Part shown: positions 4,496-26,041 of the stretch, piece after piece | Numbering within the stretch: the first letter of the stretch is position 1 | Layout: every line of letters starts with the position of its first letter | From: an uncultured Pelagibacteraceae bacterium | Lineage (GTDB): Bacteria > Pseudomonadota > Alphaproteobacteria > Pelagibacterales > Pelagibacteraceae | Reading direction: 5' to 3' | Length of the DNA: 33,474 nucleotides | Assembly: GCA_902519465.1 (NCBI GenBank) | Contig: CABYJW010000010.1 | Span: forward strand, 1-33,474 | The notes under the pieces: generated by a model | The model's input: the letters and a program-made list of their open reading frames with translations, nothing else | The model's database searches: none | Told to the model about the DNA's origin: nothing | Position numbers and translations under genes: made by a program

Positions 4496-4934
4496 GGGAG
4501 TAAAAATTACACCACTAAAAAAGATTGATGATGATCGAGGTAGTGTTCTACATATGATGAGAAAAGACTCTCCAATTTTTAAGTCTTTTGGAGAAATATA
4601 TTTCTCAGTAGCTATTCCTGGCAAGATTAAAGCTTGGCATCTCCATAAAGAAACATTCCTGAATTATGCCTGTATTGATGGAACAATTAAACTTGTCCTA
4701 TTTGATGACCGAAAGGGTAGTTCAACAAAAAATCAAAAACAAGAAATTATACTTTCTACGAAAAATTATTTTCTTGTCACAGTGCCGCCGTTAATTTGGA
4801 ATGGGTTTGTAAATATCGGCAAGACAAATGCAATTTTAGCGAATTGTTCGACTGTTCCTTATAGCGACAACGAAATTATAAGAAAATCTCCTTTTGACAA
4901 TAACATTCCCTATAAATGGGTAATAGATAAGTGA
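4488..4934 (+). CDS. dTDP-4-dehydrorhamnose 3,5-epimerase-like cupin
   Basis: A 148-residue RmlC-like cupin. RmlC epimerises C3 and C5 of 4-keto-6-deoxy sugars; here the substrate is probably the CDP-linked keto sugar made by the preceding genes, which is inferred. Visible features are DDDRGSV near residues 14-20, WHLHK with candidate catalytic or metal His at 51 and 53, and the cupin strand VTVPPLIWNGFVN. It is shorter than canonical RmlC (about 180), as are many RmlC-like proteins in CDP-sugar cassettes. The start codon lies inside the end of the dehydratase gene (ATGATTGA), and its stop overlaps the GTG start of the reductase gene. Confidence 0.82.
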   Translation: MIEGVKITPLKKIDDDRGSVLHMMRKDSPIFKSFGEIYFSVAIPGKIKAWHLHKETFLNYACIDGTIKLVLFDDRKGSSTKNQKQEIILSTKNYFLVTVPPLIWNGFVNIGKTNAILANCSTVPYSDNEIIRKSPFDNNIPYKWVIDK

Positions 4935-20165: not shown

Positions 20166-20925
20166 AGATATAACATATGATGTTAAAAGTGATTATGCTC
20201 ATGTCACTATAAATAGACCAAAAGTATTAAATGCTTTCACACCTGTTACGCTTCAAGAATTAAAAACTGCTCTTGATAGTGCCGAAAAAGATAAAAATGT
20301 AGGTGTAATAATTTTATCTGGTACTGGGGGCAAAGCTTTTTGTGCAGGCGGAGATATGAATTGGGAAAGTTCAAAAGAGTTCCAAGATCATGAATATGAA
20401 TTTCATATTCATTTAACAAAATGTAGTAAACCAATTATTGCAAAAGTAGATGGATACGCAATTGGAGGAGGAAACCATATGGCATATTTCTGCGATCTGA
20501 CAATTGCTAGTGAGAATTCAATTTTTGGACAAAACGGACCAAGGGTTGGTTCACCCGCGGGTGGAGCAATCGTTGCACATTCTGCAAACATTCTTGGCCA
20601 TAAAAGAGCTAGAGAAATGTGGATGACATGCAAAAGATATTCTGCAAAAGAGATGATGAACTGGGGACTAGTCAACTCAGTTGTAAAAAAAGAAAATTTA
20701 GATGATGAAGTAAAAAAGTATGGTGATGAAATATTAAAAGGAGCACCCACTTGTATAAAGATTTTAAAGGCCAGTTTTAGAAAACAATTTGAAGAAATTT
20801 TAAAAATTACACAAAAAAGTATGGTGGATGAAATTGCTCCAGGATATTTTAAAACTGGCGAACAATCTGAAGGAGCTAAAGCTTTTTTAGAAAAAAGAAA
20901 GCCAGATTTTAAAAAATTTCGTTAA
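20155..20925 (+). CDS. crotonase-superfamily protein, BadI/MenB-like
   Basis: An enoyl-CoA hydratase/isomerase-fold protein of 256 residues. The oxyanion-hole segments are GGKAFCAGGDMN (about 60-71) and YAIGGGNHMA. The region REMWMTCKRYSAKEMMNWGLVN and the end EGAKAFLEKRKPDFKKF closely resemble BadI (2-ketocyclohexanecarboxyl-CoA hydrolase, a ring-opening enzyme) and MenB. In those families the GP(K/R)xGSxD segment carries a key Asp; here it reads GPRVGSPAGG, with A135 in that place. So the fold and CoA-thioester substrate class are firm, but the reaction is open. It overlaps the CoA synthetase gene and shares one base with the next gene. Confidence 0.85.
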   Translation: MHFKDITYDVKSDYAHVTINRPKVLNAFTPVTLQELKTALDSAEKDKNVGVIILSGTGGKAFCAGGDMNWESSKEFQDHEYEFHIHLTKCSKPIIAKVDGYAIGGGNHMAYFCDLTIASENSIFGQNGPRVGSPAGGAIVAHSANILGHKRAREMWMTCKRYSAKEMMNWGLVNSVVKKENLDDEVKKYGDEILKGAPTCIKILKASFRKQFEEILKITQKSMVDEIAPGYFKTGEQSEGAKAFLEKRKPDFKKFR

Positions 20926-25466: not shown

Positions 25467-25543
<77 letters not shown>

Positions 25544-25547
25544 ATAA

Positions 25548-25760
25548 TTATTTTTTGGGTCTTTTTAAATTTATTGCCTGCAATTTACCTCGTTCTTCTT
25601 TGATTTCAAATTGAATTATTTGATTTTCTTTTAAAATTCTAAATTTTGATTTTTCCAGTGCAGAAACATGTAAAAATACGTCTTTTTGATTCTCTTCTTC
25701 AAGCGTTATAAAGCCATAACCTTTTTTTGAATTGAACCATTTAACCCTACCTAATGGCAT
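25548..25760 (-). CDS. cold-shock domain protein (CspA family)
   Basis: A 70-residue single-stranded nucleic-acid chaperone. RNP1 is KGYGFITL (residues 13-20) and RNP2 is VFLHVSAL (28-35). The opening MPLGRVKWFNSKKGYG is typical, and the Lys/Arg-rich tail (LKRPKK) adds charge. A good Shine-Dalgarno (AGGAGAG) precedes the ATG. It lies 25 bases after rpsU and four bases before tRNA-fMet, suggesting one transcript. Confidence 0.94.
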   Translation of the reverse strand: MPLGRVKWFNSKKGYGFITLEEENQKDVFLHVSALEKSKFRILKENQIIQFEIKEERGKLQAINLKRPKK

Positions 25761-25785
25761 AATACTCTCCTAATATTTTGGGAGG

Positions 25786-25980
25786 CTACAATCGATTTCT
25801 TAGACGTTGATTTTTTTTAACTCTTTTAAGATTTTCAAGTTTAATTCTTTTCTTTTTTTCAGAAGGCTTTTCGTAAATGCTCTTCATTTTTATAATTTTA
25901 AAAAAACCTTCTTTTTGAAGCTTTCTTTTAAGAACTCTTAAAGCTTGTTCTACATTATTATCTTTAACGTCTATTTTAAT
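25786..25980 (-). CDS. rpsU: 30S ribosomal protein S21, apparent ATT start codon
   Basis: A 64-residue basic protein reading (M)KIDVKDNNVEQALRVLKRK, then GFFKIIKMKSIYEKPSEKKKR, which is clearly S21. The family alignment places the initiator at an ATT codon (25980-25978): no ATG, GTG or TTG occurs in frame at or near this point. GGAGG sits four bases upstream. S21 joins the 30S platform and helps mRNA recognition. It is upstream of the cold-shock gene and downstream of purE by 61 bases. The alternative is an ATA two codons in (residues IDVKD), which fits the family less well. Confidence 0.9.
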   Translation of the reverse strand: MKIDVKDNNVEQALRVLKRKLQKEGFFKIIKMKSIYEKPSEKKKRIKLENLKRVKKNQRLRNRL

Positions 25981-25984
25981 AAAT

Positions 25985-25989
25985 CCTCC
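25985..25989 (-). promoter_or_regulatory. Shine-Dalgarno GGAGG of rpsU, deciding the ATT start
   Basis: A full GGAGG, rare in this window, lies four bases before the ATT. An ATG overlapping this site (25991-25989) opens only a six-codon frame (MEDLLK) that stops inside rpsU, so it is not the S21 start. The strong ribosome-binding site argues that translation really begins at or very near the ATT. Confidence 0.7.
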
Positions 25990-26041
25990 ATAATTTCAAA
26001 CAGGTAGTTATCACGATGTATGGATATTGTCTATATTAGTT

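Follow-up and report, generated by a model that had tools for sequence, protein, structure and literature searches.

An AUU start codon conserved in the SAR11 gene for ribosomal protein bS21 and its possible use in translational control

In the window, which is the whole stretch of 33,474 nucleotides analysed here, the rpsU gene encoding ribosomal protein bS21 starts with ATT, and the same codon is kept in all rpsU loci found in the genus and in nearly all family genomes that match the searched 5' end. We are nearly certain that AUU is the true rpsU start codon in SAR11. From these sequences, it seems fairly probable that this true start has been kept as a throttle on translation, which would depend on the Shine–Dalgarno (SD) sequence, would probably be sensitive to IF3, and would most likely serve bS21 feedback. 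The features of the locus are listed in Table 1.

Table 1. Features of the rpsU locus in the window
Feature	Position	Strand	Description and basis
rpsU (ribosomal protein bS21)	25786..25980	minus	64 codons beginning with ATT, then TAG; Pfam PF01165 and reading frame
Initiation codon ATT	25978..25980	minus	Sequence; conserved in genus and family
Shine–Dalgarno GGAGG	25985..25989	minus	4 nt before ATT; sequence
Promoter-like TAGACA - 17 nt - TAACTA	26005..26033	minus	24 nt before ATT
Overlapping ATG frame MEDLLK*	25971..25991	minus	Sequence; not conserved
Cold-shock domain gene	25548..25760	minus	Pfam CSD E=6e-22; next downstream of rpsU
Initiator tRNA-fMet	25467..25543	minus	ARAGORN tRNA-Met, anticodon CAT, C1/A72 mismatch; 4 nt after cold-shock stop

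The rpsU product passed the bS21 domain test (Pfam Ribosomal_S21, E=4.9e-16, score 58.6 bits, curated cut-off 27), and its frame closes with TAG at 25788-25786 (minus strand). The earlier note on this DNA had placed ATT in the initiator position behind a GGAGG four bases upstream, with no ATG, GTG or TTG available, and each part of this description agrees with the window. The spacer between GGAGG and ATT is ATTT (25984-25981, minus strand), ATT is followed by AAA ATA GAC GTT, and the upstream frame reaches its closing TGA without any of the three codons.

An rpsU match was found in 24 of the 31 genomes of the window's genus, and all 24 loci, the window's own included, carry ATT. For the family, 397 genomes were searched with a pattern of ATT or ATG before K-x-[DE]-V-K, in which x is an NTN codon. 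The results showed that 318 genomes matched, and that the ATG-only version matched 7 of the 397, all seven in one genus; at least 311 genomes therefore carry ATT. In the remaining 79, the gene may be absent from incomplete assemblies or divergent in the searched stretch. The ATT genomes include single-contig ones of 99-100% completeness (G032, G038, G045, G050, and G068). Among the matches listed for the family's rpsU pattern are single-cell genomes of Candidatus Pelagibacter ubique, HIMB114 and named Pelagibacteraceae, together with one Rhodospirillaceae-titled record, and these relatives place the window in SAR11. The first codon of 190 distinct family loci is ATT in 183 and ATG in 7, whereas codons 2-9 are variable. 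A local sequencing error at ATT, the objection that the earlier note had itself raised, is ruled out because the orthologues compared across SAR11 retain the codon. Two family loci (L319 and L320, in G193 and G125) have the rpsU frame interrupted by stops, through either assembly error or decay. One contig (G089:C12) has two rpsU matches of equal score, at 4754-4909 (minus) and 20401-20556 (plus), perhaps an assembly duplication.

Beyond the family, the 37 rpsU loci of the sister family f2 have a GTN codon preceded by ATA (36) or ATC (1), which we infer to be the start there, and GGAGG lies 8 nt upstream in 36 of them, L059 having none. The rest of the Alphaproteobacteria was surveyed with one genome per family (110 rpsU loci from 107 genomes), and the script counted GTG in 50, ATG in 21, TTG in 16, ATC in 9, ATA in 6, CTG in 4, and ACG and ATT in one each, with two unread. 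Inspection by eye gave ATG for L136 and GTG for L209, and in L149 and L206 it located an ATG or TTG two codons farther upstream, so that ATG accounts for 21-23 and non-NTG starts for 19-21 of the 110. In 38 loci the usual start, codon -5, is something other than NTG, and 34 of these show ATG or a near-cognate at codon -6, the four exceptions including the two misread loci; among the other 72 loci, 4 do so. Across the Alphaproteobacteria, rpsU mostly avoids ATG. As controls, bL27 has ATG in all 30 loci fetched, from 111 genomes with a match, and non-alphaproteobacterial rpsU has ATG in 29 of 29, these being the best-scoring loci among 177 genomes with a match and not a random sample. Two pelagiphage S21 genes were also seen (L331, 395-598; L332, 395-604): that of HTVC008M has an annotated ATG and no GGAGG in the preceding 20 nt, and that of Mosig has TTG with GGAGG. 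Judging from its start region, the HTVC008M gene would avoid the AUU start typical of the host.

The same survey bears on whether the control is purely of the infC type, with the level of IF3 relative to 30S subunits setting the use of AUU and bS21 uninvolved. Read by eye, infC has ATA or ATC in 14 of 30 loci of other Alphaproteobacteria (10 of the 30 were unread by the script) and ATA in 3 of 3 loci of f2, and one report describes rising IF3 as disfavouring the decoding of AUU by anticodon CAU in vitro (PMC10158994). Both the loci of other Alphaproteobacteria and the in vitro result speak for such control, but in SAR11 family f1 (L271-L296) infC has an apparent GTG directly after TAA in 18 of 23 loci, again by eye, and the exceptional SD of rpsU would be left unexplained. 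We regard this explanation as somewhat unlikely. Because of the apparent GTG of f1 infC, any IF3-dependent control through AUU would lack its classical partner there.

We analyzed the coupling between start codon and SD in 85 distinct family loci, for which the seven ATG loci were deliberately sought. All 78 ATT loci have an SD (GGAGG in 76, GGAG in 2) and none of the seven ATG loci has one, and neither mixed state (ATG with SD, or ATT without) was found among the 85. The distance from GGAGG to ATT in family loci is 4, 5, 6 or 9 nt. Judging from this pattern, ATG without SD looks like an alternative state, and its occurrence in 7 genomes means that AUU is not indispensable. A single origin of this state was not supported, since a quick tree (about 1.8 kb of context from 65 loci, 6 of the 7 ATG loci included) did not group the ATG loci, on weak data; several switches, exchange between lineages, or noise in the tree are possible.

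To set the SD of rpsU against a genomic baseline, gene starts were picked by a simple rule in two genomes, and the SD counts for both are estimates. In 800 kb of the SAR11 genome G032, GGAGG occurs in the SD window of 4 of 785 predicted genes. A pairing energy of -8 or lower was found for 26 genes against 4 in a control window, an enrichment that suggests a working anti-SD, and one of -10 or lower for 3 genes against 2. With -10.6, the rpsU SD would come second among 786 there, although this rank alone proves little because the counts at -10 hardly differ from the control. Within the first 400 kb of G032, four-base SDs were not commoner than in the control (24 against 20 of 372 genes). In G014, which belongs to the window's genus, they occur in 47 of 245 genes against 18 in the control, with GGAGG in 7, and since SDs are commoner there the rpsU SD is less exceptional. 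Pattern scans for the 16S 3' tail found none in the stretches taken of G032 and G014.

In Flavobacterium, as one report describes, rpsU is autoregulated and bS21-deficient ribosomes can pair with its strong SD (PMC9976891). A purely equivalent control in SAR11 would have the strong SD recognised by ribosomes that lack bS21 and expose their anti-SD, with AUU only cutting the SD-blind background. The scarcity of strong SDs in G032, the exceptional SD of rpsU, and the loss of the SD together with AUU are consistent with it. On the other side, the equivalent of Tyr54 appears to be missing, by extrapolation of an alignment, and the other SAR11 genes with strong SDs argue that the anti-SD is not generally closed. 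Taken together, we consider this explanation rather unlikely.

The surroundings of the gene were then compared. A tRNA-fMet gene lies within 600 nt after rpsU in all 21 distinct genus loci whose flank is long enough for scoring, a condition that excludes one further genus locus, and follows rpsU directly or behind a cold-shock gene in 39 of 49 further f1 loci; the latter count was 39 of 52 before two f2 loci and a paralogue from a contaminated genome were left out. In at least 21 of these 39 linked loci the tRNA begins 3-7 nt past the rpsU stop. Near rpsU, no tRNA-fMet was found in any of 27 f2 loci or of 30 other loci of the class. The window's tRNA has the C1/A72 mismatch that marks initiator tRNAs, and its anticodon-stem "3GC" pairs, read from the sequence, are A-U/G-C/G-C. 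The tRNA-fMet behind rpsU is the only tRNA-Met found in the 800 kb of G032. An altered initiator anticodon was rejected, since the gene reads CAT, a reading that is blind to modification. The linkage is also no requirement for AUU, since 10 of the 49 further f1 loci have ATT without it.

An element similar to the promoter-like one of the window precedes 154 of the 190 distinct rpsU loci, with a spacer of 17 in 133, and the same type of element precedes 28 of 785 genes of G032, with a spacer of 17 in 5; a general promoter scan did not report the TAGACA-17-TAACTA element. Its position points to an rpsU leader of roughly 16-19 nt, which is short for a folded regulator, and the arrangement of the genes suggests that rpsU, the cold-shock gene and tRNA-fMet are co-transcribed. 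CCTCC directly after the rpsU stop opposes AGGAG before the cold-shock gene (25758-25790, minus strand); as an SD sequester it was rejected, being present in only 5 of 173 loci. A wider reading, which we put forward tentatively and hold to be unlikely, is that rpsU with its AUU, sometimes the cold-shock gene, and tRNA-fMet form one short-leader unit that both senses and sets initiation capacity, in which the decoding of AUU would rise when initiator tRNA and 30S subunits outrun IF3 and more bS21 would be made. If so, two components of initiation would be made together, and bS21 would be tuned by the leniency of initiation.

Next to be weighed is that AUU is real but a tolerated frozen accident, with the strong SD compensating and no regulation. 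The 10 family loci that keep AUU without tRNA linkage and the existence of ATG relatives without SD would fit such an accident. However, ATG is one base away, yet ATT, ATA, ATC, CTG, GTG and TTG recur across families, and bL27 has ATG throughout its 30 loci, so we judge a frozen accident to be improbable.

The other candidate starts around the SD were also analyzed. As the earlier note had described, an ATG at 25991-25989 (minus strand) opens a six-codon frame across the SD, ATGGAGGATTTATTAAAATAG (MEDLLK*). The ATGGAGG overlap occurs in 9 of 24 genus loci and in 8 of the 190 distinct family loci, and from this distribution the minigene is probably without meaning; a frameshift from it is ruled out, the ATG not being conserved. 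Codon 3 is ATA in 179 of the 190 loci, ATC in 7, ATT in 3 and GTA in 1, and this variability, GTA included, disfavours a start at AUA. Family loci from L424 onward were retrieved by a GGAGG..ATT pattern and are biased; the 84 loci left without them comprise 53 with ATT and no in-frame NTG upstream, 19 with ATT in which the TTG of TTGGAGG is the sole in-frame NTG, 5 with ATT and another NTG, and 7 with ATG. Translation beginning elsewhere, whether at codon 3, at an in-frame TTG over the SD or through a frameshift out of the six-codon ATG frame, is thus highly improbable. Although this TTG is the sole in-frame NTG in 87 of the 190 distinct loci and the overlapping ATG is present in over a third of the genus loci, 53 of the 77 ATT loci retrieved independently of the ATT pattern lack any in-frame NTG upstream, codon 3 varies, and the overlapping ATG is rare in the family.

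We therefore return to the throttle as the favoured explanation. In SAR11 rpsU, fMet-tRNA almost certainly initiates at a true AUU codon, which has presumably been retained for its weakness and would make bS21 synthesis dependent on SD pairing and on lenient checking of the start codon. AUU would bar SD-independent initiation and transmit the stringency of IF3, and the SD would admit subunits with a free anti-SD. Efficient translation of rpsU would require that 30S subunits whose anti-SD is free outnumber those that IF3 can police. bS21 joins the 30S subunit late, and its output would thus follow the supply of subunits that are young or poor in bS21, much as infC combines AUU with IF3 and Flavobacterium rpsU offers its strong SD to bS21-deficient ribosomes. 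Either the IF3 or the bS21 signal may dominate. E. coli bS21 probably aids, and does not block, SD pairing, and because of this and of the missing Tyr54 counterpart, the effect of bS21 in the loop may have either sign. SAR11 rpsU joins both cis features, the AUU codon and the strong SD. Autoregulation is plausible on these comparisons, and gains support from the avoidance of ATG in the class, the exceptional SD in G032 and the linked initiator tRNA.

AUU starts are usually treated as infC curiosities. In SAR11, one of the ocean's most abundant bacterial groups, AUU has become fixed as the start of a ribosomal protein gene and is the extreme of a class-wide avoidance of ATG in rpsU. None of the titles, abstracts and passages covered in the open-access literature dealt with rpsU starting at a codon other than AUG, in SAR11 or in Alphaproteobacteria at large, though one survey of non-AUG-preferring genes (arXiv 2008.10758) may list rpsU. 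Regulation of rpsU through its start is likely and, as far as this literature goes, would be a new form of start-codon-based control. The natural series of start codons on rpsU (AUU, AUA, AUC, CUG, UUG, GUG, and AUG), with the coupled loss of the SD, suits tests of start choice, SD strength, IF3 and bS21 in combination. Gene callers limited to ATG, GTG and TTG are expected to miss or truncate SAR11 S21.

Among known systems, the Flavobacteriales share with SAR11 the same gene and an exceptional SD where the genome uses SDs little, but the SAR11 start codon is AUU, and occlusion of the anti-SD would be hypothetical in SAR11. The pairing energy of SAR11 rpsU with a 9-nt anti-SD is -9.3 to -11.6, against less than -13 kcal/mol by another method for the Flavobacteriales. 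In an alignment to 7jil_z, which we take to be F. johnsoniae bS21, residues 4-49 match SAR11 bS21 residues 3-48; Tyr54, which redirects the 16S tail, lies beyond the matched stretch, and by extrapolation its SAR11 counterpart would be Arg53, not tyrosine. The E. coli infC gene, encoding IF3, reportedly has an AUU start and controls itself through this codon. SAR11 rpsU is likewise a translation-machinery gene with a start of the AUU class, an AUU/AUC/AUA codon conserved in its orthologues, and would share the start-codon-based feedback. In contrast to infC, the product is bS21 and not IF3, and rpsU has a very strong SD with an apparently short leader, features read from sequence. E. coli rpsT, the autoregulated gene for the 30S protein bS20, is said to start with UUG; SAR11 rpsU resembles it as a 30S protein gene with a non-AUG start, whereas UUG is a standard alternative start and the protein is a different one.
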